Of a stretch of DNA of 17,073 nucleotides, positions 58-11,791 are shown in pieces; positions within the stretch are counted from its first letter, which is position 1, and each line of letters opens with the position of its first letter. This DNA comes from Planctomycetota bacterium (GTDB taxonomy: Bacteria; Planctomycetota; Planctomycetia; Pirellulales; Pirellulaceae). The notes beneath the pieces were generated by a model that was not told where the DNA came from, ran no database searches, and worked only from the letters and a program-made list of their open reading frames with translations. The stretch covers positions 1 to 17,073 of the forward strand of contig JAJDEH010000223.1 in the NCBI GenBank assembly GCA_029259935.1, read 5' to 3'. The position numbers were made by a program, and so were the translations under genes.

Positions 58-131
58 GGGCGGTTAGCTCAGTTGGCTAGAGCGCCACGTTGACATCGTG
101 GAGGTCGTTGGTTCAAGCCCAATACCGCCCA
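58..131 (+). tRNA. tRNA-Val (anticodon GAC)
   Basis: The full cloverleaf is visible. The acceptor stem GGGCGGT (58-64) pairs with ACCGCCC (124-130), with discriminator A131. The D-arm is GCTC/GAGC. The anticodon stem CCACG/CGTGG encloses the loop TTGACAT with anticodon GAC at 92-94, which reads valine GUC. The T-arm GTTGG/CCAAT encloses TTCAAGC. The 3' CCA is not encoded, and a short T-run at 133-137 may end transcription. An integrase gene begins about 115 bp downstream in the same direction, which makes the 3' half of this tRNA the likely attachment core of the island. Confidence 0.96.
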
Positions 132-246
132 CTTTTTACAAGTCCTTGCTGAGTCACATCTTGTGACTACCTGCCTTGCCTCGGCAGCGCGGCGTGGAAC
201 GGGTTACTACCCATTTCACTACCCTTTTTCATTCATGGGAGCCGCG

Positions 247-1512
247 ATGCGCCAACAACGAAAGCCCGCCTATCAACTCCACAAGGCCACCGGGCAAGCC
301 CGCGTTCATCTGGCCGGAAGGGATTTCTACCTCGGTGAGCACAACTCACCGCAAAGCAGAGTACGTTACGATGAGTTGATTACCGAGTGGCTCGTCAAAC
401 AAGACACGAGCAGATACTCACTCACGATCGATGATCTTTGCCTCCTGTTTTTGAGGCACGCCAATTCCTACTATCGGCGACGAGACGGTACGCCAACCGG
501 TACTATCGATAACTTCAAAGAGGCTCTCCGTTATTTGGTGAAAATGTACGGAACCAATCGAGTGCGAGAATTCGGCCCAAAAAAACTCAAATCCATTCGC
601 GATGCGATGATAGACGACAATCGATGCCGAACGAATATAAATCGGCTGGTCGCATTGATTCGGCAGGTGTTTCGATGGGGCGTCGAAGAAGAAATTGTCC
701 CAGCCGGTGTTCACCAATCAATTGCGGCCGTGAGAGGGTTGAGAGCGGGAAGATCCAATGCGAGGGAGAGTGAGCCAGTTCCGCAAGTGTCCGACGCCAT
801 GGTTGCGCAGACAATCCCGCACCTTCCCGCCACGGTCGCGGATATGGTCACGATTCAAAGGCTAACTGGGTGCCGCCCGACAGAAGTTTGCAAGTTGCGA
901 CCCTGCGATCTCGACCGTTCGGGACGCGTTTGGAGGTACACTCCAGACAGTCACAAATCAGAGCATCACGGTCGTCATCGAGTCATCATGATCGGACCAA
1001 AGGCACAGGCTGTTCTGCTTCCCCATTTATTGCGTGACAAGACCAGCTACTGCTTCTCGCCCATGGACAGCGAGAAAAAGCGGCAGAACGAACGACATCT
1101 GAATCGCAAGACGCATCGGTCGCATGGAAATAAACCCGGAACCAATCGCAAGAGAAATCCAAAGCGAAAACCAAGTGAAAGATATAACAAGGACTCATAC
1201 GCCCGGGCGATTGCACGAGCTTGTGAAAAAGCGTTTCCACCTCCCGAGCCACTGGCAAGACATTCAGGTGAAAGCGTACGATCATGGCTTGGCCGGTTGA
1301 ATGATCAGCAACAGGAAGAATTGAAGGCTTGGAAAGCCGCAAGCTCTTGGAGCCCGAATCAGCTACGCCACACCCTCTCCACGGAGGTTCGTCGAGATTT
1401 TGGATTGGAAGCTGCTCAGGTAGTCTTAGGCCATTCGCGCGCCGATGTTACACAGATATATGCAGAACGAGATCTCCAGCTGGCAGAACAGGTCATGGTT
1501 CAAATCGGTTGA
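247..1512 (+). CDS. Tyrosine-type site-specific integrase
   Basis: Predicted tyrosine recombinase of 421 aa that would catalyse integration and excision of the island. From the chosen start there is an N-terminal arm/core-binding region (about 1-175), then the catalytic domain. The visible catalytic set is Arg210 in TGCRPTEVCKL, Arg374 in NQLRHT (Asn replaces the usual first His of HxLRH), His396 in VLGHS and nucleophile Tyr405 in IYAERD. A strongly basic insert lies near residues 275-314, between the first Arg and the second box; such inserts are common in planctomycete integrases. I chose ATG 247 because GGGAG lies just upstream. The frame is open back to 163, and ATG 235 is an alternative. 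The position directly downstream of tRNA-Val fits tRNA-targeted integration. The recombinase call is secure; the element type is inferred. Confidence 0.93.
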   Translation: MRQQRKPAYQLHKATGQARVHLAGRDFYLGEHNSPQSRVRYDELITEWLVKQDTSRYSLTIDDLCLLFLRHANSYYRRRDGTPTGTIDNFKEALRYLVKMYGTNRVREFGPKKLKSIRDAMIDDNRCRTNINRLVALIRQVFRWGVEEEIVPAGVHQSIAAVRGLRAGRSNARESEPVPQVSDAMVAQTIPHLPATVADMVTIQRLTGCRPTEVCKLRPCDLDRSGRVWRYTPDSHKSEHHGRHRVIMIGPKAQAVLLPHLLRDKTSYCFSPMDSEKKRQNERHLNRKTHRSHGNKPGTNRKRNPKRKPSERYNKDSYARAIARACEKAFPPPEPLARHSGESVRSWLGRLNDQQQEELKAWKAASSWSPNQLRHTLSTEVRRDFGLEAAQVVLGHSRADVTQIYAERDLQLAEQVMVQIG

Positions 1513-1578
1513 GCAAATGTGCCTGCGCTCCAGTTAAATTCGTCGATCAATGATCACAAATCAGCCACTGGATTTGAA

Positions 1579-2592
1579 ATGACCGCGGATGACGAGCAAG
1601 GGAGATGGACGATAAGGGCATTTGATGTCACGAAGGAGCAATGGTTCGACGACATTGTGAAGTGTCCGAACATTTACTCTCTAGGGCGTCTATTGAACGC
1701 TACGGAATGGGTCCGGCTACGTGCGTACCTACTTCGCAATGAGCAAGGAAAGGAGATCGTGGAAGTTCTGCAGAAGCGATCGGAGAATTGCACCTACTCT
1801 TGTTTGGCGAGCCGTGCAGAATGCTGCGTGCAACTACTCCGAGGCTGGCATGAGGAGATGCTTGAGTTCTGGGATTCCGAAGAGTTTGTTGAGTGGCCTG
1901 ACGAACTCTGTGAACCAGATTTGAGGTTTGAGCGAAGTAATGCAGAACATTGGCTTGGGGCGGAGAAGCCGGTCGTTGCTCTCGCGGAAAACCTCGACGA
2001 GAACGAAGCGCATGTGCTGTGGCTAGGAGTTCATGTAGACCGGAAACTGCGGCCATTTTTGTGCGGTTTCCCAGAAGAAGTTGCAAAATCAGTCGCTTCG
2101 GGAGTCATAGAGAATTCGCACTTCAGTCATCACGCCGGTTGGCTTGAGGACATCCGAGGACGCAGTTGTCGAATTGGTCTCGATTGCAAGGATTTCTGTT
2201 CTGATGCGGACCGGAGTAAATGGAATCTAGACACGCTGGTCCAAAAAGTTGACCAGTGGGTGAGATTGTCGCTGCGCGAAATAGAGTCGGCAACTCAGCA
2301 ACCAAAAAGCGAGAAGGGCATTCTTGGCATGTGGATTGATAGAGAAAATCGAAAGGTCTGGCGAGAGGGTTACGATGAGATTGTCGACTTTTCCAGATGC
2401 TCGGAGTCTTGGCAAGCTTTCCGTTTCTGCTGGGAGGCCGGTGAGGATGGAACTCGGTGGGAGAAAGTCAAGGACGGTTACGAAGGAGAATGGGATGCTA
2501 GGCATGAGGTCCGCCAAGAACTCTGCGAAAAACTCAAGCCCATCGGAATTACGGTGGCTAAGAGAAAACTCCAGTTGATCGACCTAAGGTGA
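1579..2592 (+). CDS. Hypothetical protein, unrecognised, island cargo
   Basis: Open frame of 337 aa from ATG 1579. A GTG at 1519, 6 bp after the integrase stop, would add 20 residues, and neither start has a good ribosome-binding site. The product is soluble-looking, acidic and rich in Trp, Cys and Glu. It has no signal peptide, membrane segment or nucleotide-binding motif I can see. Two stretches, around ECCVQLLRGWHEEM and the C-terminal WEAGEDGTRWEKVKDGYEG, look well formed but match no family I know. It lies between the integrase and the DUF1580-like gene on the same strand, so it is probably cargo of the element. The long frame with ordinary codon use supports a real gene; its function is unknown. 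Confidence 0.72.
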   Translation: MTADDEQGRWTIRAFDVTKEQWFDDIVKCPNIYSLGRLLNATEWVRLRAYLLRNEQGKEIVEVLQKRSENCTYSCLASRAECCVQLLRGWHEEMLEFWDSEEFVEWPDELCEPDLRFERSNAEHWLGAEKPVVALAENLDENEAHVLWLGVHVDRKLRPFLCGFPEEVAKSVASGVIENSHFSHHAGWLEDIRGRSCRIGLDCKDFCSDADRSKWNLDTLVQKVDQWVRLSLREIESATQQPKSEKGILGMWIDRENRKVWREGYDEIVDFSRCSESWQAFRFCWEAGEDGTRWEKVKDGYEGEWDARHEVRQELCEKLKPIGITVAKRKLQLIDLR

Positions 2593-2695
2593 TTCTTAGC
2601 AGATCACTGCGTGTCGATCTTAAGTCAAAGTCTTTTAATAGCTTCAATCTAGTTCGAATCTGTCCACGACAGTTCACTCGATTGGAGTTTTTTTC

Positions 2696-3061
2696 ATGGG
2701 AATCGATATTCACTCAGAACACCTCATTTCGCTTTCTGAGGCTGCACGTCTTTTGCCTGGAAAGCCAAGTCCAGCAACGATTTGGCGTTGGTATTCGAAA
2801 GGGGTGAAAGGCGTCCGTTTGACAACGATAGTTTGCGGAGGCCGGCGAGTGACGTCCAAGGAGGCTTTACAGAAATTCTGCGATCGATTGACGGAAGCGA
2901 AGGCCACGCAGCAAGAAGATTTGGACAGAGACATGCGAGCGGAAGCGACGCGCAGGAGAGTCAGTCGCCGAGAAGCCAAGGGGACGGGGAAAGATCTGGG
3001 GGATAGCGACGAGCGACGTGAAGCGACGCGCAGGAGATTGAAGGAGACAGGGCTGCTGTGA
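2696..3061 (+). CDS. DUF1580-like helix-turn-helix protein
   Basis: Small 121-aa protein. The N-terminal half carries a MerR/excisionase-like DNA-binding pattern: HLISLSEAARLLP, then PSPATIWRWYSKGVKG, then a strand RLTTIVCGGRRVTSKEAL. This is the layout of the planctomycete DUF1580 family. The C-terminal half (about 75-121) is very charged, with a repeated EATRRR element encoded by an exact 18-bp direct repeat. Start ATG 2696 is supported by GGAG 8 bp upstream. Proteins of this kind usually sit near integrases in planctomycete islands, so a role as excision or directionality factor, or as regulator, is plausible but inferred. Confidence 0.8.
   Translation: MGIDIHSEHLISLSEAARLLPGKPSPATIWRWYSKGVKGVRLTTIVCGGRRVTSKEALQKFCDRLTEAKATQQEDLDRDMRAEATRRRVSRREAKGTGKDLGDSDERREATRRRLKETGLL
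2942..3037 (+). repeat. Exact 18-bp direct repeat in the DUF1580-like gene
   Basis: GAAGCGACGCGCAGGAGA occurs at 2942-2959 and again at 3020-3037, 78 bp apart (a multiple of 3). It encodes the repeated EATRRR segment of the charged tail and suggests in-frame duplication. Confidence 0.85.
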
Positions 3062-3149
3062 GGGGAAGCAAACACCAGGCCGAGAACTCGCCACTGAAAC
3101 CGTTGAATCCTGTCCTTACGGTTTTCGACGACGACTGGAATCTAGAGAA

Positions 3150-3359
3150 ATGAAAAAGAAAAAAGCCAAACCATCAGCACCACGAACTCGCCAGATCAAG
3201 TTTCGGGTGACAGCGGAAGAGCAGAATCTCATCCGGGGAGCTGCGGCCCTTAGTAAGAAACACAGCATGGCGGCTTTCGCGCGTGAGGTGGTACTCAACG
3301 ATGCACAACGATTGACGGTTGAATTCAGGCTCGCTGCGGAGTCCGCAAGACGACGGTGA
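3150..3359 (+). CDS. Small ribbon-helix-helix / MobC-like DNA-binding protein
   Basis: Protein of 69 aa with a lysine-rich N-terminal tail (1-10), a basic strand RQIKFRVTAEEQNLI and two helices ending in MAAFAREVVLNDAQRL. That is the strand-helix-helix plan of ribbon-helix-helix proteins, close to the MobC/DUF1778-like type used in mobilisation proteins and antitoxins. Start ATG 3150 has only a weak AGAGA upstream. The stop lies 10 bp before a perfect 20-bp palindrome that precedes the RT-like gene. RHH dimers commonly bind such dyads, so it is a candidate regulator of the downstream genes (inference). No partner toxin or relaxase is visible. Confidence 0.7.
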   Translation: MKKKKAKPSAPRTRQIKFRVTAEEQNLIRGAAALSKKHSMAAFAREVVLNDAQRLTVEFRLAAESARRR

Positions 3360-3369
3360 AGCGTTTAAT

Positions 3370-3389
3370 TTCTATTAACGTTAATAGAA
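3370..3389. promoter_or_regulatory. Palindrome site 1, operator-like
   Basis: TTCTATTAACGTTAATAGAA is a perfect 20-bp palindrome between the RHH gene and the RT-like gene, ending 16 bp before the RT start. Three more variants occur in the window. It is likely a protein-binding site; the function is inferred. Confidence 0.7.
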
Positions 3390-3405
3390 TTTATCAGAGG
3401 TGGAT

Positions 3406-4560
3406 ATGCCTATCCAAGTTGACAATCTCTCATTGAAGCTGGTTACGATAAACGAAGGGCGTGAGGCTATCGCTCTGGCACCTTGCACAGATGAATTGAC
3501 TCATCTTTTGGGCACGACGTTCTATACGGTGCAGCATCGACCAGTACAAGGTTCGACAGGCTATCGCCTGAAGCCGGAATGGTTCCCCTTGATTCGTGTT
3601 GTCCACGACGACCTGTACGACCGAGACACGATCGTATTACATGCTGGAATGAAGAGCATCGTTTGCGAGTTGCTTGCGAAAGCCGGCTATCGTGTTCGCA
3701 TTGAGGACAAGCGCATTGAGGACAAGATCGAACAGCTTCGGCGTCCACAGATGGATGAGATCGATGAGCCAATCGATCGGGGTCTCTTAGATGTGATAGA
3801 GGCACACCGGACGTTGTTTGAAACAGATTTAGCGGAAGTAGTGGAAGCCAGCGACCGTGAGCGGATTCTAGAGTACATGGCGTTGATACTGCGGGGCAAC
3901 GACACACGCCGGCAAATCGGCATTGATGAAGGAAATCCATATTCACCAACGGCACTGAACGTGCTGTTGCACACCGTACACGATCTCCGGCTTAGCCGGG
4001 AATCGTTGTTTCCGTTCTGGTTTCGCTACGCCGACAACTTGGTGTATGCGTGCCAGAGCGTGTCCGAAGGCCAACAGGTGCTCCAACACGTGCGGCAACT
4101 CCTGCGGATTAGGAATCTCGAACTAAAGGAGAAAACGAACGTGTTCGATCTTGCCGCCGGAGACGAAGTCAAGCTGCTTGGCTTTTGGCTCCGGCTTACG
4201 GAAAAAGGTCTGCAGTTCCGGCTTGACGCTAAAGTCGCCGAACGGAACTTGAAGGAACACCTGCGCCGTGCTCATCAAGCCACTAACCCTACCAAAGCAG
4301 CCGCAGAAGCTGTAAGGGGTATGATGGCGAGCATTGGTCCGGCCTTTGAGGCGGCAAGACCCTGGATAGGAACTGCTCCCCGGATCTGTGTTCACGAGGG
4401 TTTTCGGGAAGTTCCCGGACCTAAGGACTGTATGCGGATAGCGGAGGAGTCGCATAGGGCCTGGGAAAAGGCTCTGGCGGCTGCCTATCGGCAGGTTTCT
4501 ATTTCGCAGGCTCCGCCGTGCGGGTTTTCCGGGCTTAGATTGCCCGAAGCCGGCACCTGA
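3406..4560 (+). CDS. Reverse-transcriptase-like protein with YADN active-site box
   Basis: Protein of 384 aa starting at ATG 3406, with AGAGG 5 bp upstream; GTG 3400 is an alternative. Residues 137-262 follow the RT palm order. FETDL (Asp141) sits at the first catalytic Asp position, followed by ASDRERIL. GNPYSPTALN (176-185) matches the G-x-P-x-SP-x-x-x-N box, RYADN (207-211) the YADD box, KEKTN the downstream lysine motif, and LLGFWL (257-262) the LGF motif. A helical thumb-like region follows (about 280-315). The second Asp of YADD is Asn here. Residues 1-130 do not look like normal RT fingers; CTDELTHLL and LYDRDTIVLHAGM recall the N-terminal part of some phage-type SF2 helicases (weak inference). 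No maturase or endonuclease domain is evident. The RT assignment is good; activity and role are unknown. Confidence 0.78.
   Translation: MPIQVDNLSLKLVTINEGREAIALAPCTDELTHLLGTTFYTVQHRPVQGSTGYRLKPEWFPLIRVVHDDLYDRDTIVLHAGMKSIVCELLAKAGYRVRIEDKRIEDKIEQLRRPQMDEIDEPIDRGLLDVIEAHRTLFETDLAEVVEASDRERILEYMALILRGNDTRRQIGIDEGNPYSPTALNVLLHTVHDLRLSRESLFPFWFRYADNLVYACQSVSEGQQVLQHVRQLLRIRNLELKEKTNVFDLAAGDEVKLLGFWLRLTEKGLQFRLDAKVAERNLKEHLRRAHQATNPTKAAAEAVRGMMASIGPAFEAARPWIGTAPRICVHEGFREVPGPKDCMRIAEESHRAWEKALAAAYRQVSISQAPPCGFSGLRLPEAGT
4530..4546 (+). other. Small hairpin inside the 3' end of the RT-like gene
   Basis: CGGGC-TTAGATT-GCCCG forms a 5-bp GC stem just before the terminator, so the end of the message is highly structured. 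It may be incidental coding sequence. Confidence 0.35.
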
Positions 4561-4584
4561 CTCTGTCGGGTGCTGGCTATTTTT
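4549..4584 (+). terminator. Rho-independent terminator after the RT-like gene
   Basis: GCCGGCACC pairs with GGTGCTGGC (9 bp, one G-U) around an 11-nt loop, followed by TATTTTT. The stem's left arm lies in the last codons of the RT-like gene, so termination would occur right at its stop. The following paralogue genes therefore probably need their own promoter. Confidence 0.75.
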
Positions 4585-4653
4585 CAAGCCAACTCAGGTA
4601 TATCGCATCACGCAGACCTTGGGCCAATATTAATTCTTATGGATGAAAAGATC

Positions 4654-5412
4654 ATGGAGAGTTCAACTGCTGACGTAAGCGAGTGTTACTCAATTCTCAA
4701 ACCGACTCGCAAAGGCCAGCGTTTAGTACGGCAACTTCTGGCAAATCTGCGAGAAGGTGAACACTGCCCTTCGCTGGCGAGCTTAGCTGCCGGCGACCTG
4801 AGCCTGGTTCTCCGCTTTCTCTCTGCGACCCCAGGCATGTGCTTCTTCTTCGTGGGATCACACCAGCGGCGTCTGTACGCTTTGGGAGGGCCTCGAAAAG
4901 ATTCGGTGTTGGATCTTGGACTGAACTTGTTAAATGAAGTCGAGAGTACGTCGGTGGCTGTCGTGCGAGCCGATCCGCTGCATGCAATCCAATCCAGCGT
5001 GTCACGGTTACGCCATCCTTTTATTTCCGAAGCGATAGCGCAAATATGCGATGCGGTAAAGGCGCGAGACGACGTCATTCTTGTTCTCGGCTGGCGAATC
5101 GATGGCGAGCAGGAATGCCACATCGCTCGTAGTTTCGGCATAAGCGGGGCGCTTGCACGTGATCACATTTGCTGGTTTCTTCAGCATCGCTTGGGAGCGA
5201 CGTGCTTGGGAGCGACGTGCTTGGGATCGCCTGAGTTGAAGCTCTCCAAGGATGGCTTAACGGACCGTCGAATCAGCATATTCGCACTGCTGATTGTTTC
5301 CCAGCGAATTGCCAGCCGACCATTCTCACGGTTGCCTTGCAATTTTTCCCCGTTTCTATTAACGCTAATAGAGACTCACTTGTACGGATTAGTTCGATCA
5401 TGGACGGTTTAA
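4654..5412 (+). CDS. Unrecognised protein, tandem paralogue A of the RT-associated pair
   Basis: Protein of 252 aa from ATG 4654. This start is chosen by alignment with paralogue B, since both begin GATCATGGA and then run into LKPTRK. ATG 4639 and GTG 4570 are upstream alternatives. The first ~205 residues are homologous to the next gene along their whole length: CPSLASLAAGDLSLVLRFLS, a FFFVGSHQRRLYALGG strand, LHAIQSSVSRLRHP, and ARDHICWFLQHRLGA. An in-frame 15-bp tandem duplication gives LGATC twice. After KLSKDG the protein continues into about 50 residues with no counterpart in paralogue B. That tail runs through palindrome site 2 and overlaps the next start by 13 bp, so it may be a readthrough extension after loss of the original stop. 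No known family, signal peptide or membrane segment is recognised. Confidence 0.68.
   Translation: MESSTADVSECYSILKPTRKGQRLVRQLLANLREGEHCPSLASLAAGDLSLVLRFLSATPGMCFFFVGSHQRRLYALGGPRKDSVLDLGLNLLNEVESTSVAVVRADPLHAIQSSVSRLRHPFISEAIAQICDAVKARDDVILVLGWRIDGEQECHIARSFGISGALARDHICWFLQHRLGATCLGATCLGSPELKLSKDGLTDRRISIFALLIVSQRIASRPFSRLPCNFSPFLLTLIETHLYGLVRSWTV
5191..5220 (+). repeat. 15-bp tandem duplication
   Basis: TTGGGAGCGACGTGC is present twice in a row (5191-5205, 5206-5220), followed by a partial third TTGGGA. It adds five residues to paralogue A; paralogue B has only one related unit. Confidence 0.9.
5354..5373. promoter_or_regulatory. Palindrome site 2, operator-like
   Basis: TTCTATTAACGCTAATAGAG matches site 1 at 18 of 20 positions. 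It ends 26 bp before the start of paralogue B and lies inside the extended 3' end of paralogue A. Confidence 0.65.
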
Positions 5413-6005
5413 ACGCAGCTGTTAGTAAGTGTTCCGCAGTACTCAAGCCGACGCGCAAAGACCTGCGCGCAGTGCGGCAGATTCTCGCCGGTCAGTGCGA
5501 AGGGGAGCAGTGTCCGTCGCTGGTCAGATTGGCCACCGGTGACTTGTCATTAGTTCTTCGTTTTCTCTCCGCGATCCCAGGCTTGTCGTTTATCTTCGTT
5601 GCATCACATCGACGCCAGCTCCTCGCTTTTGGAGGGTCGCGTGAAGAGTCAGTGCTGCGGCTCGGTTTTGACCTATTGGGTGAAGAGTCACAACCGCCCG
5701 GAGTTGAATCGCCACACTTTGCAGACTCATTACATGCGTTGCAATCCAGCGTGTCACAGATGCGTCGTCCGGTGATTGCAGATGCTGTGGAACTTGTTTG
5801 CGATTCGTTACGAGAACGAGACGATGTCGCCTTCGTCTTGGGCTGGCGATTCAATGACGAAGTGGATGCTCAGTTGGATCGCAGCTTCGGTTTGAGTGAT
5901 GATCTTTCGCGTGATCACATTCGCTGGTTTCTGCGACATCGATTGGGAGTGACGTCGCTGGGAGCACAAGAGTCAAAGCTATCCAAGGACGGGGTGCTAT
6001 GCTAG
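5400..6005 (+). CDS. Unrecognised protein, tandem paralogue B of the RT-associated pair
   Basis: Protein of 201 aa from ATG 5400. It aligns with paralogue A end to end. Shared elements are VLKPTRK near residue 20, CPSLVRLATGDLSLVLRFLS, a hydrophobic strand FIFVASHRRQLLAFGG, LHALQSSVSQMRRPVI, RERDDVAFVLGWRF and SRDHIRWFLRHRLGV. The product looks like a soluble alpha/beta protein; I see no catalytic motif I can name. The stop codon overlaps the next ATG in ATGCTAG, so the following gene is probably translationally coupled. Palindrome site 2 lies 26 bp upstream, which suggests control by the same factor as the RT-like gene. Function unknown. Confidence 0.75.
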   Translation: MDGLNAAVSKCSAVLKPTRKDLRAVRQILAGQCEGEQCPSLVRLATGDLSLVLRFLSAIPGLSFIFVASHRRQLLAFGGSREESVLRLGFDLLGEESQPPGVESPHFADSLHALQSSVSQMRRPVIADAVELVCDSLRERDDVAFVLGWRFNDEVDAQLDRSFGLSDDLSRDHIRWFLRHRLGVTSLGAQESKLSKDGVLC

Positions 6006-7069
6006 TGGCCAGCAGTGAATTCGAGCGCTGGAATCCCCTTCGGCCGGTTGATTGGCGCTGGCGGCGTGCCCTGGCGATTGTCGAAGAAGGTCGTCGCTAC
6101 TCGTCTCGCCGCGATGACCCTGTTATCAGTGAGGCGATTCGTTTTCTGCGTGGTTTGCGGCGGGCTAATACAGACCGTGCTCTGATGCTGTTAAAGCGCC
6201 GCATGCCGGCGCTGTATGCGGCTTACGAGCTTCATGAAGCGGACAATCAAGCCGCTTGGCTAGTGCAGGCTCGGTTGTTGGCGGGTTTGAATGTGGAACC
6301 GGTCGCTGCGAGGGGTGAATTGGATGCGGCTGTCGTCGATTTGTATGAACACGTGTTCTTCAATGTTCGAGATCGGCTGGATGCTCGGTCATACATCCTT
6401 AAAGCGGCGATCGGGCGTGAAGAGCCAGATCAACTGCCCGAGGCAAGCGTCGCTGTGCTATTGCGGAAGTGCGGCTATTTCGGCGGGCCTTTAGCGCTGG
6501 AGAAAGCCGCTGCCGTACTATTGCCCAGCACGCCCGGACAGCCTGTGTCCTGCGGCGATCAAGCCGGCTTAGCCGCGCTACGAATCAACGTGCTCGCACG
6601 GCTGGAATCAGCGCGACTGGACGAGCTGAACCCGGCAGCGCTCACTGAATTATGCAAAACCACCCAAACAGCGGGTGCTTCCGACAACGCACCGTTCACC
6701 GCTTCAACGGCGCACCTTCTCAATGGTTTGATCGTGAACTTAATGAACGGCAACAAGTCAAAGGATGAGGACGCCAAGAAGATAACAGTGGTCAACGGCG
6801 ACGATGGCACATGGAGCGTCCGCTCTGAAGGCAATGAGATCAGCAAGGGAACCAGCACCTTCGATCCAACGAAGAAGCCCAAGACCATCGACTTCACACC
6901 CACCGAAGGCGGCGGAAAGGGCGATCTGTTCCTCGGGATTTACAAACTCGGCAAGAACACTCGAAAGCTGTGCTTTGCACCATCGGGCAAGGAGCGGCCC
7001 ACTGAGTTTTCTTCCAGCCCTGACAATCGGCACATTCTCGTTACGTTCGAGCGAGTCAAATCTGAGTAG
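5999..7069 (+). CDS. Two-part protein: RPxDWRW-type N-terminus fused to TIGR03067-like domain
   Basis: Protein of 356 aa whose ATG overlaps the stop of paralogue B (ATGCTAG), so the two are an operon. Residues 10-135 contain NPLRPVDWRWRRALAIVEEG, a helical segment, and a helix-turn-helix-like stretch ending DLYEHVFFNVRDRLDAR. Together these suggest a nucleic-acid-associated module of a planctomycete family, from memory only. Residues about 261-356 match the C-terminal part of TIGR03067 domains: FDPTKKPKTIDFTPTEG, then FLGIYKL, then LCFAPSGKERPTEFSS and HILVTFERV. The usual N-terminal LQGTW half of that domain and any signal peptide are missing. A low-complexity linker (NGNKSKDEDAKK) joins the parts. 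The C-terminal domain match is strong; a joint role with the RT-like gene is inferred from position. Confidence 0.75.
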   Translation: MLVASSEFERWNPLRPVDWRWRRALAIVEEGRRYSSRRDDPVISEAIRFLRGLRRANTDRALMLLKRRMPALYAAYELHEADNQAAWLVQARLLAGLNVEPVAARGELDAAVVDLYEHVFFNVRDRLDARSYILKAAIGREEPDQLPEASVAVLLRKCGYFGGPLALEKAAAVLLPSTPGQPVSCGDQAGLAALRINVLARLESARLDELNPAALTELCKTTQTAGASDNAPFTASTAHLLNGLIVNLMNGNKSKDEDAKKITVVNGDDGTWSVRSEGNEISKGTSTFDPTKKPKTIDFTPTEGGGKGDLFLGIYKLGKNTRKLCFAPSGKERPTEFSSSPDNRHILVTFERVKSE

Positions 7070-7133
7070 CGGTAGGTGACGATCATCAGCCTCGCCGAGA
7101 AAGTGTGACACTTAAACTTCGGGAGATGTGTGG

Positions 7134-7592
7134 ATGGAAATCGCCGAATTCATAGATGAATACGCTGCCGGGCCGCAGAAATTGCGTGATGCCATCGCCG
7201 GGATGACGCTTGAGCAGATCGACGCCGCTCCGGTGCCCGGCAAATGGTCAACACGACAAGTCATCTGCCATCTTGCCGACTTCGAGCCGGTCTATGCCGA
7301 CCGAATGAAGCATGTCATCGCTGAGGACCAGCCGACATTCCCCGGTGGCTTTGATCGGCAGTTTGCCGAGCATCTCGCTTACGATCAGCGGGACATCGAG
7401 GAAGAACTCACGATGATTGAAGTCACTCGAAGTCAAATGGCTCGCATCCTGCGTTCCTTGCCGTCCGAGGGATTTGAACGAACGGGCATTCATGCCGTAA
7501 GAGGCCCAATGACACTTCGGACATTGCTGGAAGCAATCACCAATCACATTCCACATCATGTCCGGTTCATACACAGTCTTCCTCTCGACTGA
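7134..7592 (+). CDS. DinB-like (DUF664-type) metal-binding protein
   Basis: Protein of 152 aa with the four-helix DinB/YfiT pattern. PGKWSTRQVICHLADFE supplies the first His (46). The C-terminal NHIPHHVRFIH supplies the HxxxH pair (138 and 142), which together form the usual metal-binding triad. Members of this superfamily are thiol-dependent S-transferases or uncharacterised proteins. The substrate cannot be read from sequence, and the name DinB does not imply DNA repair here. I chose ATG 7134 because GGGAG is 8 bp upstream; GTG 7128 is too close to it. The length is typical of the family. The gene lies 64 bp after the TIGR03067 fusion gene on the same strand. Confidence 0.88.
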   Translation: MEIAEFIDEYAAGPQKLRDAIAGMTLEQIDAAPVPGKWSTRQVICHLADFEPVYADRMKHVIAEDQPTFPGGFDRQFAEHLAYDQRDIEEELTMIEVTRSQMARILRSLPSEGFERTGIHAVRGPMTLRTLLEAITNHIPHHVRFIHSLPLD

Positions 7593-7656
7593 CGATCCGG
7601 CCATCGCTTATGGGGTCGTGGCGCTGACCGACCCGTTCGAGGATCTCGTCGGCCCG

Positions 7657-7846
7657 TACCTGCCCATGATGACCGAGACGGTATTGTCGAGATGGAAAAC
7701 CGTGCATCGAGTTTTCGTGGGACGGCAATGACGAAATGGACCCGGCGCAGGGTCGTGGCTGGGGGGTCTATGACGGCGATGAGCTTTCGGGCACGATTTA
7801 CATCCATCATGGCGACGAGTCAGATTTCACTGCAATACGGAAGTGA
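7657..7846 (+). pseudogene. Frameshifted remnant of a small acidic protein
   Basis: Two reading frames together give a sensible acidic product. DDRDGIVEMENR is read in one frame up to about 7702. CIEFSWDGNDEMDPAQGRGW, then LSGTIYIHHGDESDFTAIRK, is read from 7703 to the stop at 7844-7846. One missing base near 7700-7703 would explain the break. The glycine- and acid-rich tail with a clean stop 3 bp before the next ATG looks like a genuine gene end. No intact start was found in frame upstream. An alternative short frame begins at ATG 7558 but looks less protein-like toward its end. No family is recognised. Confidence 0.4.
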
Positions 7847-7849
7847 TCC

Positions 7850-8710
7850 ATGGGTAACATCAGCAAACGGCTGCATCGGAAACTGGCGAGCAAATCAGGC
7901 AATTTGCCAACCAAAGCGCCAAAAAGGCGTCCCGGAGAGCCTTTGCCCGGCAACATCAAGGATGTTGAGATGCTTATCAAGGACGGACTTGATCCCGTTC
8001 ACGCCGTCTATGCCTACATCCAACAGATCAGTGCTCACTTTGCCGAGGGCGTTTCCCAACTGCCCGAGATGAAGCAATGGGCTCGTGCCGTCGAGAAGGC
8101 CGAGGAGGAGTACATGCCTTCCGGCCCACCTATGAGCCCGCTGACCGGAAGTTACTTTACGACGTGGGTGCTGTACGACTTCCGCATCGGCGGCACGGGC
8201 GACACCATGGCGGAGTGCCAGATTGATGCAAACGACGTGTTCCTGATGAACCCGGATCAACTGGACGCTTTGAGGAAACAGGCAGCGTCTCGAATGGGGA
8301 TTTACGAGCACGTCGGCATGGTCGGTCCTCATGTGCGACTTCGGGAATTAATTACTGGCGATGAGTGTAACTGTCTTAGCGCAACAGGCTACCAAGGACA
8401 CGAAGGCGAACTCTGGTACGTCAGACTCCTACCGCCAGTGATGCCCGAATTCGCCGATTATCACATCGTGTTCACGACGCCATACATTCTGATCCATGCC
8501 ACCAAAGGCGACTGGGTGAACTTTCTGACACGAAGCCTGTTACAGTTCAAGTCCGACGATGAGCGGCAAGCGCTCCAGCAGTTGATGAAGTACGGTCCAG
8601 AGCAGAACTTCTGGAACGAGTTTGTGTTCAAGGCGTATCACCACCACCAGCACGATGCGATCTCTTTGGCGGGTATCCCCGACCTGAAAGACAGTCTGCC
8701 CCATGCGTAA
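7850..8710 (+). CDS. Conserved hypothetical protein
   Basis: Protein of 286 aa. A basic N-terminus (1-30) leads into a helical region and then a well-formed globular domain. Recognisable stretches are GPPMSPLTGSYFTTWVLYDF, ASRMGIYEHVGMVGPHVRLR, GYQGHEGELWYVRLLPP and YHIVFTTPYILIHATKGDW. I have a general memory of this pattern in conserved uncharacterised proteins of environmental bacteria, but no function is attached. There is no signal peptide and no obvious catalytic motif; the histidine cluster AYHHHQHD near residue 265 could bind metal, though this is speculative. ATG 7850 follows the previous remnant's stop by 3 bp. The next gene starts 9 bp after its stop, so they are probably co-transcribed. 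Confidence 0.8.
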   Translation: MGNISKRLHRKLASKSGNLPTKAPKRRPGEPLPGNIKDVEMLIKDGLDPVHAVYAYIQQISAHFAEGVSQLPEMKQWARAVEKAEEEYMPSGPPMSPLTGSYFTTWVLYDFRIGGTGDTMAECQIDANDVFLMNPDQLDALRKQAASRMGIYEHVGMVGPHVRLRELITGDECNCLSATGYQGHEGELWYVRLLPPVMPEFADYHIVFTTPYILIHATKGDWVNFLTRSLLQFKSDDERQALQQLMKYGPEQNFWNEFVFKAYHHHQHDAISLAGIPDLKDSLPHA

Positions 8711-9162: not shown

Positions 9163-9630
9163 ATGAACGACGAAGAACCTTCCATCAAAGATCGGCTGGC
9201 TGACGTTCTGAACTCGATCCTCTGCCCGGTGGCTGGCTGCTGGCCGCTCCACGGTGGTCATTCCGAATACTACTTCGACACCGACGCCGAGTCGCACGTC
9301 TTGGAGGTCTGGCCGGTTGGAATTGAGGAACCGGAAGAACACGCAGGTAATGGGCATCATCAAACTGAACAGGGCTTGTTGTACGAACTGGCTGAGTTCG
9401 ACTTCACAGAGTTGGCAAAAGAGATTCCGCTGGAACACTTCCATTTCAGCCAACGACGCTCGATCTTCGAGATCGGCTGGGAGGAAGACGGCCAGCAATT
9501 GGAGCTTCGGGTACTGATGCACGGGCGGCATCCGCGGTTAGCGAAAGCGTCGCACAAGCACGTTTTTGGACGGTGCATCAGCAGCGGTGCGCACGGCGGC
9601 TGGACGCGGCGTACCGATCGTTGGCCGTGA
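9163..9630 (+). CDS. Small acidic hypothetical protein with a possibly replaced C-terminus
   Basis: Protein of 155 aa from ATG 9163. The N-terminal ~120 residues are acidic and well formed (HGGHSEYYFDTDAESHVLEVW, then ELAEFDFTEL, IFEIGWEEDGQQLELRVLMHG), consistent with a small cytoplasmic protein; no family is recognised. After LMHGRHP the composition turns basic and Gly/Arg-rich up to the stop at 9630. The same DNA in another frame reads as a convincing C-terminal fragment of a different protein, so the original end of this gene was probably lost when foreign DNA joined at about 9530-9550. It is the last gene of the 7850-9630 unit. Confidence 0.62.
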   Translation: MNDEEPSIKDRLADVLNSILCPVAGCWPLHGGHSEYYFDTDAESHVLEVWPVGIEEPEEHAGNGHHQTEQGLLYELAEFDFTELAKEIPLEHFHFSQRRSIFEIGWEEDGQQLELRVLMHGRHPRLAKASHKHVFGRCISSGAHGGWTRRTDRWP

Positions 9631-9692
9631 TTCGAAATCTTCTGCCGAAAGAGGAGGGAAAGGCCGCCAAACGGAGAAAACTTCACGCATGA
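9549..9692 (+). pseudogene. C-terminal fragment of an unknown basic protein
   Basis: This frame, overlapping the end of the previous gene, reads as helical protein: QARFWTVHQQRCARRLDAAY, then RSLAVIRNLLPKEEGKAAKRRKLHA and a stop at 9690-9692. The heptad-like hydrophobic spacing and basic tail resemble C-termini of planctomycete proteins with conserved LATVRKLL-type endings. There is no start in this frame. It is best explained as a remnant carried in by insertion or deletion. Confidence 0.35.
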
Positions 9693-9979
9693 GAGCTGTA
9701 TTGCCCATTCTGGCTGCAGATTCGCCCGCTAGCGAGAGATTTTGGACTGGGCCGTCTTTCTAGTCGGCATCCACAGATCTGCTCCTACAGCTCAAATCTG
9801 TAGCTCTCCTGCCGCTAGCCCGGTAGCGGGGTGTTGGTCGTTTGTCTCCGGCATCGGATGCACAATGCTGCCAAGCGAACCGAGGAATTCTATTAGCGTT
9901 AATAAATCTCTAATGGCGTGGCTGCACTGAGCAGCCTCGCTCGGCGCTTGCGGTCCGAAGTAACGGTGCTGGCCCGCAA
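9693..9979. other. Gene-free scar region with two hairpins and palindrome site 3
   Basis: No plausible gene is seen. Two small inverted repeats stand close together: CTACAG-CTCAAAT-CTGTAG at 9785-9803 and CCGCTA-GCCCGG-TAGCGG at 9812-9829. Palindrome site 3 follows at 9888-9907. The region lies between protein fragments on both sides. Confidence 0.5.
9888..9907. promoter_or_regulatory. Palindrome site 3, degenerate right arm
   Basis: TTCTATTAGCGTTAATAAAT keeps the left arm TTCTATT and the core of sites 1 and 2 but differs in the outer right arm. No intact gene follows; only fragments lie downstream. Confidence 0.55.
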
Positions 9980-10087
9980 GTGAACCACTGGGTGAATATT
10001 AGGATCGACTGCATGTCGCACGGGTTGCCGCCTTTGCGAGATCGCGGTAACGACATTCGTCTGCTCGCCAGACATTTTGCCAGTTCA
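9980..10087 (+). pseudogene. Fragment of a sigma-54-dependent activator (AAA+ domain)
   Basis: The frame reads VNIRIDCMSHGLPPLRDRGNDIRLLARHFA. LPPLRxRxxDIxLLAxHF is the conserved segment late in the AAA+ domain of NtrC-type activators. Nothing of the ATP-binding or GAFTGA segments remains before it, and no DNA-binding domain follows. The frame continues without a stop into transposase sequence, so this is a short relic trapped at a junction. The boundary near 10085 is approximate. Confidence 0.6.
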
Positions 10088-10357
10088 GAATGGAAAATCG
10101 AGTTGGGCATGGGAGCGTGTCAACTGCGCAGCGGCCAAGGCCAGACCAGGCACATGCACTTGGTGATGTTGGCGTACACGTTTCTGATGCGGCAACTCCG
10201 CAACCGCCGCGCGAACGATTGGACACGGGAAAAGCTGACGACCATCGGCCAAGCCTGCCGCGCCGTAACCCGCGAAACACTCCGCTGGGCCATCACGGAA
10301 ATCGTCGACAAATCTCAACAACCAGCTCACGTTATCGCCCAATTGGGATTGATTTAG
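10088..10357 (+). mobile_element. C-terminal remnant of an IS701-like transposase
   Basis: In frame with the sigma-54 fragment, the reading frame continues ACQLRSGQGQTRHMHLVMLA, then YTFLMRQLRNRRA, then KLTTIGQACRAVTRETLRWA and a stop at 10355-10357. This is the typical end of an IS701/IS4-type DDE transposase: the final catalytic-domain helix region and the tail. The N-terminal ~80% and recognisable terminal inverted repeats are absent, so it cannot be active. It shows that an insertion sequence once helped build this junction. Confidence 0.6.
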
Positions 10358-10419
10358 CGTTTTGCAAAAGCTCAGTGTTAAGAAAGAAAGCGGCGTAAAC
10401 GGAGTAACGATTCCCGATC

Positions 10420-11456
10420 ATGCCCGAAGCCCTGAACGGATTCATCGAACGTGTCACCTACCACAATCCAGAGAACGGTTTTGCCGTGCTTCGGGTGAAA
10501 GTAAAAGGACGGGACGATCTTGTCTGCGTGGTCGGCAGCACGACCTCGGTGACCGCGGGAGGATGTCGAAGCCATTGGCCGCTGGGTGATCGATCGACAG
10601 CACGGACAGCAATTCAAAGCCGACGAACTCAAGACGACGCATCCGGCTTCTGCGGAGGGCATCGAGAAGTACCTGGCGTCAGGCGCTATTCGCAGTATTG
10701 GTCCAAAAATCGCCGCCAAGATCGTGTCGGTCTACAAAGAACGCACGCTCGACATTTTCGAGAATTATGCCGACCTGCTGCTGCATGTCAAAGGCATCGG
10801 CGCAGAGCGACTCAAACGCATCCGCCAAAGCTGGCAGGAACAAAAAGAGGTTCGCAAGATCATGCTCTTTCTCACCGAGCATGGCATCACACCGGGACGG
10901 GCTGTTCGCGTTTACCGCACTTACGGCCATGAAGCCATCGCCAAGATCAAGGAGAACCCCTACCAACTAGCCGATGACATCCGTGGTATCGGCTTCAAAA
11001 CCGCCGACGAATTGGCAGCAAAACTCGGTATCGACCGCAACAGTCCGTATCGGGCGAGGGCTGCCGTACAGTACACACTGCAAGACTTGGCTTCCAAAGG
11101 GCACTGCGGCTACCCAGAGTCGGGCGTGGTGGAACATGCGATCAAGCTGGTCGAGATCGAACAGAAGATCATCGAAGATGCGGTGCGGATCGTTGTCCAA
11201 GATGGAAGCGTGATCCGTGAATTTGTCGAAGGCGAGCCTTGGCTTTATCTCGCCGCCCTCTACCGGGCCGAAGTCGGGTTGGCACAGTCGGCTCACCGGA
11301 TTGCCTCCGCTACGCCGCATCCCTTGCCACGCATCGACGTAGAAAAAGCCATCACCTGGGTCGAGCAGCGATTAGACATCCAATTGGCCGCCGCGCAACA
11401 GGAGGCAATTCGGCAGGCTTGTCAGCACAAGATGCTTGTCATCACGGGCGGGCCGG
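10420..11456 (+). pseudogene. recD2: Truncated, frameshifted RecD2-type DNA helicase
   Basis: ATG 10420 opens a typical RecD2 N-terminus (ALNGFIERVTYHNPENGFAV). At about 10559-10562 the frame breaks: GCGGGAGGATGTC reads correctly again (EDVEAIGRWVIDRQHGQQF) if two bases (GA) are restored. The second frame then gives the helix-hairpin-helix-rich middle (GIGAERLKRIRQSW, GIGFKTADELAAKLGI) up to MLVITGGP at about 11456. There the Walker A motif GGPGxGKT should continue but unrelated sequence follows. All helicase motifs after the first Pro of Walker A are missing, so no ATPase activity is possible. RecD2 enzymes are normally ~720-740 aa; about half remains here. Confidence 0.85.
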
Positions 11457-11791
11457 ACAGAATGCGAGTTGTCTCCGCTGCGTGTAATGTCGCAGGCAAC
11501 CTCGGGCATCCCAGTCGGTCTTATTCCGAAAAATTGGTTTCGGCACTCCTCCATCCTGAGTTTCTATTCGCGGGAATAGAATTGGCTTGTTTCGGAAACC
11601 GCTTCAATGGAGACCGGGATAAACGATCGCCAAACGGGCTTGCCGGACTTCACGTCAAGGCACCAAACCCAATCTGACCACGAATCGCATCAAGCAACCC
11701 AACAATTCTGACTCCAGTGCCTGGGTCCGTGACATTGGCCGCCAACACCGGTATGCTATTTCACGTTCCTTCACCTAACAAGGAGCGACTC
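11457..11791. other. Non-coding or unassigned sequence after the recD2 break
   Basis: The recD2 frame stays open to 11677 but the product no longer resembles a helicase or any family I know. No convincing gene is seen on either strand. Palindrome-like site 4 lies in the middle at 11562-11581. The right end supplies the ribosome-binding site for the FG-GAP fragment. Confidence 0.5.
11562..11581. promoter_or_regulatory. Palindrome-like site 4 with a divergent core
   Basis: TTCTATTCGCGGGAATAGAA has both 7-bp outer arms identical to site 1 (TTCTATT and AATAGAA) with the same 6-bp spacing, but the central six bases differ. It may be a diverged copy or chance similarity. Confidence 0.4.

Follow-up and report, generated by a model that had tools for sequence, protein, structure and literature searches.

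The window analysed here is a 17,073-nucleotide (nt) stretch of the planctomycete contig JAJDEH010000223.1 (assembly GCA_029259935.1). Its positions 3370 to 7069 hold a reverse transcriptase (RT)-related open reading frame (ORF), two tandem paralogous genes (par1 and par2) and a gene named here after the RPxDWRW motif of its product (WRW). A preliminary description had read these genes as one RT-centred module, possibly a planctomycete RT system. We compared the window with other loci, proteins and genomes (L, P and G numbers, respectively), the genome set consisting of 392 planctomycete genomes. In the genome searches for RT, par, WRW and hel, the helicase-like gene described below, at most 3 to 6 candidates were scored per genome, and misses are possible.

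The ORF at 3400–4560 indeed contains an RT palm with the RYADN motif recognised earlier. It matches TIGR04416 (E = 1.2e-14, 54 bits) and Pfam RVT_1 (E = 2.4e-5), both under the curated cut-offs, as well as the RT model of PADLOC (E = 1.1e-8). The RT is not whole, as its front is missing and a helicase-like N-terminus stands there instead. An RT profile covers residues 130–362 with 254 bits (model positions 185–416 of 419); it begins behind motif A, the fingers are missing, and motif C reads RYADN, not YxDD. The front of the ORF was matched by the hel profile over residues 15–136, collinear with model positions 16–132, with 17.0 bits, compared with 7.8 bits for the best of 1000 shuffles of residues 1–130. 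Among all frames of the window this ORF was the top hel-profile match (E = 2.2e-5; the next had E = 1.3), and BLAST connected its front to the hel of L001 (E = 1e-4), L020 (E = 1.9e-4) and L002 (E = 0.016). Moreover, the 19 relatives P0002–P0020 (18 with precomputed PF00078) have only the rear part of the ORF in common. The two matches meet at LLDVIEAH, where both partners resemble each other, and a search of the window frames gave no further fragment of either gene. These observations give moderate support to a putative fusion of the hel front to the RT rear, for which the simplest reading would be an internal deletion of ~1.7 kb, as estimated from the lengths of the relatives. An intact functional RT was also considered for the window copy and is not supported, the fingers being absent and motif A absent or degraded.

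Several points weigh against this reading of the fusion. In 9 of 29 BLAST comparisons (11 with two partial ones) the RT match extends leftwards as far as residue ~118, and MAFFT places the DEIDEPID of the window under the columns of motif A. The RT part may therefore start at a degraded motif A; activity would still be unlikely, because the column of the catalytic Asp of this motif (D177 of P0003) holds Glu in the window and that of F182 holds Ile. Whichever edge is taken, the window RT has neither its fingers nor the catalytic Asp. The hel match is also a weak one, and the ORF is open across 386 codons; selection acting on the chimera, a deletion of recent date or a mis-join in the assembly may be responsible. 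A second copy of the fusion protein that could verify the contig was not found, and only a single contig is known to contain it.

The gene that regularly accompanies the RT is the helicase-like one, which had escaped the preliminary description. In the whole relatives, hel lies upstream of the RT gene on the same strand at 10 of 10 loci (L001, L002 and L015–L022). The two are fused in L001 and L015 and adjoin in six loci, while in L021 and L022 an ORF of ~160 amino acids (aa) stands between them. The RT was detected in 8 of the 392 genomes at E 1e-60, a threshold outside which weaker RTs fall. At E 1e-5, hel was found in 9 genomes, namely the same 8 plus G218, in which a contig-edge hel fragment with one stop has an RT as neighbour; a further hel fragment in G001:C7 is cut by the contig end. 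All nine full-length hel copies in the genome set stand beside an RT, a count to be read with caution since eight of them belong to the search profile and those genomes were partly re-found by construction. The less circular result is that no full-length hel was found without an RT. The distances among hel proteins follow those among the RTs (r = 0.957, permutation p = 2e-4, 10 loci; r = 0.89 when 2 close pairs of the 45 are removed). Gene order and coupling in the whole relatives are thus shown directly, and because hel precedes or is fused to the RT there and full-length hel is always beside an RT, we read the window copy as either the remnant of a deletion or a join made in assembly. That such pairs decay is plausible, given that L059, a contig-edge relative, has a stop inside its hel match.

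The surroundings of the pair vary from locus to locus. An integrase and a DUF1580 gene accompany it in L020, a ParB-like gene in L017 (and, by eye, in L018), and WRW in L016, L021 and L022. Since other loci have other backgrounds, hel-RT is suggested to be a cargo. In L043, two hel pieces (1–994 and 2437–3291) lie at the contig edge, divergent from a WRW gene as in L016, L021 and L022.

Walker A and DExH motifs are not at the motif positions in any of the 10 hel copies (nine-member alignment and script), although stray GKT/GKS or DExH/D-like strings occur elsewhere in four of them (script). In the hel parts of L001 and L002 no Pfam family exceeded its cut-off (L001 gave NYN with E = 0.19), and PHROGs yielded nothing useful for par, WRW or hel. 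A hel profile run against Protein Data Bank (PDB) sequences matched, weakly, 4d25 (molecule named BMVLG, E = 0.0023) and eIF4A/Dbp5 (E = 0.05–0.5) among unrelated weak matches. An AlphaFold model of hel, built from 2 sequences, has a predicted local distance difference test (pLDDT) score of 51. Its top Foldseek matches are superfamily 2 (SF2) proteins (E = 2.5e-10, TM ~0.25), among them ISW1, XPB, RadD, UvsW and Hef, and this evidence on a tandem RecA-like fold is only supportive because of the low pLDDT, which tells against leaning on it. By fold and, weakly, by profile, hel is probably a degenerate SF2-helicase-like protein with a dead motor, and ATP-driven unwinding is unlikely because Walker A and DExH are absent at the motif positions.

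As for the RT, one explanation would be a group II intron maturase that has lost its intron. TIGR04416 is the best curated match, group II intron RTs score highest among solved chains, and in an unrooted tree the RTs of L020–L022 and L059 adjoin three group II RTs (support 99). Nevertheless, TIGR04416 gives only 90–179 bits for the six whole relatives scanned, compared with its cut-off of 300, and the three group II RTs form a branch of their own (support 100). Moreover, Rfam finds no group II intron RNA at the window or at any of the 10 hel-RT loci, whereas it does at 3 of 3 control loci (weaker RT matches in two of the same genomes; a fourth such match, the weakest, was left out). We regard a maturase without its intron as quite improbable. 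The tree leaves out P0004, P0016, P0018, P0019 and the window fusion, and whether the hel-coupled RTs have a single origin depends on its root, because L020–L022 and L059 sit beside the group II branch. Group II introns carry YADD, while RY[AV]DN was present in 26 of the 30 sequences scanned (window copy included); by eye, the other four are P0009 with CYADN, L020 with RYGDD, and L021 and L022 with CYADD. The C-terminus of the L021 RT (5654–7411) resembles RNase H, with E = 1e-36 to a model whose cut-off it does not reach, and that of the L022 RT (6495–8252) is near-identical by eye.

Models of the named defence types did not match the RT best either. For the seven RTs scanned with PADLOC (window included), the generic RT model came first each time and a named UG or DRT (defence-associated RT) model was never the best match; DRT models do match at modest scores, and TIGR04416 outscores every one of them there. 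Not all retron RNAs are contained in Rfam, which shows no retron-type or other associated RNA at the window or the 10 hel-RT loci. In the 20 largest families of direct repeats, nothing stood out as the template or variable repeat of a diversity-generating retroelement (DGR), no dedicated search having been made. The window RT was not found in plasmids, nor was the RT alignment matched in IMG/VR; with P0003 as query, phage records gave 30 matches of <60% identity, none covering 80% of the query.

The listing of the G2L5 RTs dates from 2008. Excerpts of PMC4244168 give G2L5 as planctomycete sequences of uncertain placement and state that G2L3-5 have a conserved maturase domain, and an excerpt of PMC4424553 lists G2L5 RTs without a function. 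In excerpts of PMC8934634, one published G2L5 RT is without the GIIM domain, and two G2L5 RTs of Gimesia maris share 28% identity, one of them lying between transposase genes. Neither the window RT nor L001 has a maturase domain according to Pfam, and our G387 has two hel-coupled RTs that are 28.4% identical, with a transposase-like ORF near one (by eye). Planctomycete origin, a group II-like sequence and no ribozyme, by which G2L5 is recognised, were all found here. By copy number, the 28% identity and the transposase-like neighbour, the family is probably G2L5, as compared with the published members by their descriptions. The word "helicase" has no occurrence in the main texts of PMC4244168 and PMC8934634. 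A helicase-like partner of G2L5 RTs was not found in the open-licence PubMed Central (PMC) literature, in which the hel-RT partnership is apparently undescribed.

The other genes of the region, listed with all features in Table 1, tell a different story. As described previously, par1 and par2 are homologues, and the third ORF (5999–7069) overlaps the stop of par2 by 7 nt.

Table 1. Features of the window, in order of position.
Feature	Coordinates	Strand	Evidence or remark
tRNA-Val (GAC), presumed integration site	58..132	+	ARAGORN, Rfam
Tyrosine recombinase (island integrase)	163..1512	+	PF00589, E = 3.7e-10
Unknown island gene	1519..2592	+	Weak positional counterpart in L020
DUF1580 protein	2696..3061	+	PF07618, E = 3.8e-15
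NikA-like protein	3150..3359	+	PF21983, E = 1e-6, above cut-off
Palindrome TTTCTATTAACGTTAATAGA ahead of hel::RT ORF	3369..3388	.	Repeat scan
hel::RT fusion ORF, apparent internal-deletion remnant	3400..4560	+	Profile and alignment evidence
N-terminal part of helicase-like (hel) protein, residues ~15–136	3442..3807	+	hel profile
C-terminal RT part, residues ~130–362, behind motif A to end, RYADN	3787..4485	+	RT profile
GC-rich terminator-like hairpin over RT stop codon	4548..4578	+	Hairpin scan
par1, first paralogue (ORF open from 4570)	4639..5412	+	57% identical to par2
Palindrome ahead of par2	5353..5372	.	Repeat scan
par2, second paralogue	5400..6005	+	Homologue in L026
WRW gene (RPxDWRW), truncated close to its 3' end; helical, possibly including a helix-turn-helix (HTH)	5999..6742	+	WRW profile
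Truncated TIGR03067 domain joined in frame to WRW	6743..7069	+	TIGR03067, E = 1.6e-14

This third ORF, taken earlier for a two-domain gene, is real, and it represents a cut WRW protein joined to a TIGR03067 tail. The WRW profile, which includes the window copy itself, gives 281 bits over model positions 1–241 of 279. The helices are those of an AlphaFold2 (AF2) model of the relative P0065, confident only over residues ~20–120; a fold search with WRW returned nothing at E <0.001 and PDB sequences gave no match. The TIGR03067 part covers model positions 19–106 of 107, so its start is absent, and the partners are alike at NGNK, where they join. The window domain is 72–77% identical to stretches of P0023, P0037 and P0042. 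In P0037–P0061 (mostly 55–77% identical) TIGR03067 is attached to unrelated N-termini (methyltransferase, hydrolase, esterase), like a shuffled tail; it was not found in open-licence PMC papers. By eye, 10 of 13 loci have a similar small gene downstream of WRW; a profile of that gene gave no convincing match to the window (best E = 0.2).

The pairwise dN/dS (nonsynonymous to synonymous substitution ratio) between par1 and par2 is 0.22 or 0.32, depending on which of two methods is used, and thus appears as expected of old, constrained genes. A protein search gave no homologue of par2 outside the window, and par had no relative in IMG/VR. Among the 392 genomes, par has one clear homologue (G268, E = 4e-11) and two more weak ones. 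The clear homologue stands immediately ahead of a WRW gene, as seen in L026 (29% identity to par2 across 173 aa, E = 2.6e-14).

If the fusion ORF, both paralogues and WRW acted together as a functional, shortened RT system, they should keep company elsewhere. All these genes are on one strand, the fusion ORF is open with a well conserved RT part, the paralogues look constrained, and WRW lies within 3 kb of an RT in 3 of the 10 RT loci (L016, L021 and L022, found with the window query alone), which indicates that WRW and the RT share islands. Five genomes contain both RT and WRW compared with 0.24 expected (hypergeometric p = 5.6e-7, a value that ignores kinship and profile bias). However, WRW occurs in 12 of the 392 genomes (3 of them partly by construction, as the WRW profile includes loci obtained via the RT), and 7 of these 12 have no match to the window RT family at E 1e-60, nor any RT at E 0.01 within 8 to 16 kb around WRW (L026, L042, L045–L048 and L050). 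The expected co-occurrence was therefore borne out only in part. The only clear par homologue, in G268, belongs to the WRW genomes without the RT and has no RT in the 12.6 kb examined. In all three loci with both, WRW is divergent from hel-RT and forms no operon with it. In addition, the fingers of the window RT are missing and its motif A is absent or degraded. A working module of this kind is very improbable, and the earlier reading as one RT-centred module does not hold; par-WRW is another island unit. The four WRW loci scanned (L026, L045, L046 and L048) contain integrase, Prim-Pol or DUF927 genes. Given that the RT is often absent, that par adjoins WRW and that such genes are the neighbours, par-WRW probably belongs to island backbones.

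L042 and L044 each carry a tandem pair of WRW genes, and the stretch examined is without an RT in both. The genes flanking those of L042 resemble, by eye, those of the hel-RT islands L021 and L022, as if cargo had been exchanged. In L048 the integrase gene of the WRW island (9378–10743) ends at a tRNA-Gln, which marks another tRNA-associated island.

These comparisons also bear on whether hel-RT in the whole relatives is a cargo at all. It could instead take part in the life cycle of the island, in replication or transfer via a cDNA step, as would fit its linkage to an integrase and DUF1580 in L020 and to WRW in L016, L021 and L022, and the RNase H-like C-termini of the L021 and L022 RTs. The differing backgrounds of the hel-RT loci are rather those of an exchangeable cargo, and WRW loci such as L042 and L044 are without an RT in the stretch examined. 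We consider a life-cycle role less likely than a cargo role, though a serious minority view.

The left end of the window supports the island itself, as previously proposed. The tRNA-Val(GAC) is followed by a tyrosine integrase that is 46% identical to that of L020 (E = 1e-111), where a tRNA-Val of the same anticodon stands ahead of the related integrase and where the DNA behind the tRNA is alike (by eye). The order in L020 is tRNA-Val(GAC), integrase, a weak homologue of the gene at 1519–2592 (34 aa, E = 0.003, equally placed), DUF1580, one further gene, hel and RT. For the gene at 1519–2592, library scans gave no convincing family match. The DUF1580 protein, which we take to be a small HTH-like protein, is 47% identical over 70 aa to its L020 homologue. 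The NikA-like protein, presumably of the ribbon-helix-helix kind, has a match ahead of RPxDWRW in L021 (E = 2e-10); that in L022 is weak (E = 0.02). With a tRNA, an adjacent integrase and a related island at the same tRNA elsewhere, this is a tRNA-targeted integrative island. No exact repeat of at least 11 nt of the tRNA plus 40 nt, as expected of an attachment (att) site, was found within the window, whose right end may be lost, nor one of at least 12 nt in 36 kb of G371; the island is not marked out by G+C content.

To the right of the ORFs described above lie a DinB-like gene, a DUF6930 gene and a broken RecD2 gene, followed by sulfatase- and hydrolase-like ORFs (by eye). The RecD2 gene (HHH_RecD2, 10420–11460) has a frame change near 10560 and is cut just behind its GGP motif, another sign of decay or mis-joining in the region. 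We therefore considered an assembly artefact, in which mis-joined reads would have created the hel-RT join and perhaps that of WRW and TIGR03067. The single contig, the look-alike stretches at both junctions (LLDVIEAH and NGNK) and the broken RecD2 would fit such an origin. Against it, the reading frame is kept at both joins, L020 shows the same gene order with an unbroken pair, and L059 has a stop inside its hel match. An artefact is unlikely on balance.

The same palindrome had been noted before two of the units, and it does precede the fusion ORF and par2, but not par1 or WRW. A near copy lies at 9887–9906 and a weak one at 11561–11580. The 8 strand matches correspond to 4 sites in the window, compared with a mean of 1.05 in shuffled sequence (at least 8 in 0 of 200 shuffles). 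The core CTATTARCGYTAATAG has no exact match in the 392 genomes, and a general planctomycete repeat was therefore rejected; one IMG/VR contig gave a match (L067:7736). The palindrome is possibly an operator for a local regulator. A hairpin like that over the RT stop codon occurs at the RT end of L002 (3390–3445). Similar C-terminal peptides (PEAGS/PEAGT or EAGS) were seen in P0014, P0018, P0019, L002 and the window, and the remaining 9 loci compared are without that peptide (by eye).

Taken together, the best explanation of the whole, to which we assign a probability of about three in four, is that a tRNA-Val(GAC) integrative island has been damaged in its interior, where this region joins a hel-RT remnant and a par-par-WRW unit. 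The first unit would be the remnant of a cargo operon of two genes, the first encoding hel, a degenerate SF2-helicase-like protein, and the second a group II-like RT that is probably G2L5. An in-frame deletion would have connected hel residue ~115–135 with the RT, either at motif A or immediately behind it. The product, without the greater part of hel, the fingers of the RT and the Asp of motif A, should not polymerise. The second unit, par-par-WRW, would be a backbone part of planctomycete integrase/primase islands, in which a second break may have replaced the end of WRW and the usual downstream gene by the TIGR03067 tail. The window is real sequence, yet a damaged composite region.

In the whole relatives, hel may bind nucleic acid without acting as an ATP-driven motor, and would present template or primer to the RT within one complex. 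A role as defence cargo is the one we prefer, at about even odds judging from sequence; PADLOC, run on 10 neighbours, returned a single match, the ankyrin protein of L021, and no evidence of defence, which weighs against it. More tentatively, and somewhat short of even odds, we propose an obligate two-component RT system in planctomycetes that belongs neither to the group II introns nor, apparently, to the retrons, the DGRs or the named DRTs. In it, a motor-dead SF2-helicase-like protein would be coupled or fused to a G2L5-type RT whose active site is mostly substituted (YADN/YVDN); the pair would move as a cargo from one integrase island to another and probably defend these islands by helicase-guided cDNA synthesis, the window copy being inactivated by deletion. 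Of the planctomycete RT system suggested initially, an RT lineage without intron RNA on mobile islands thus stands, and the window copy as a working system does not.

The helicase-like partner, the natural fusions, the co-divergence and the shared tRNA-Val island provide a concrete handle on G2L5-type RTs, which for years have been listed with no function assigned. The hel-RT pair is a defined one that can be expressed and assayed, and the value of the finding lies in the whole relatives. The window copy, an RT without an intact motif A, should not be taken as a working system.

Compared with known systems, the RT resembles the G2L5 group II-like RTs in its planctomycete origin and its ribozyme-less, group II-like sequence; published descriptions of G2L5, as far as the main texts cited above go, contain no helicase, whereas hel is the partner here, and the window copy is moreover truncated. 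Group II intron RT/maturases are the closest curated and solved relatives of the RT, and differ in their intron RNA, not found here, in the mostly RY[AV]DN motif of our sequences and in the helicase-like partner. Defence RTs (UG/DRT) and retrons have the RT palm, the island location and modest DRT-model scores in common with hel-RT, although the generic RT model is best here and Rfam shows no associated RNA. The hel copies, without Walker A and DExH at the motif positions, depart from SF2 helicases, which have both motifs; in the fold of the low-confidence model and in the weak DEAD-box profile matches they are like SF2 helicases of the XPB/RadD/UvsW kind. Finally, although neither a Prim-Pol or DUF927 type of replication gene nor a far att repeat was recognised in the window, it shares its tRNA target, its tyrosine integrase and its WRW unit with the integrative islands that carry such genes.

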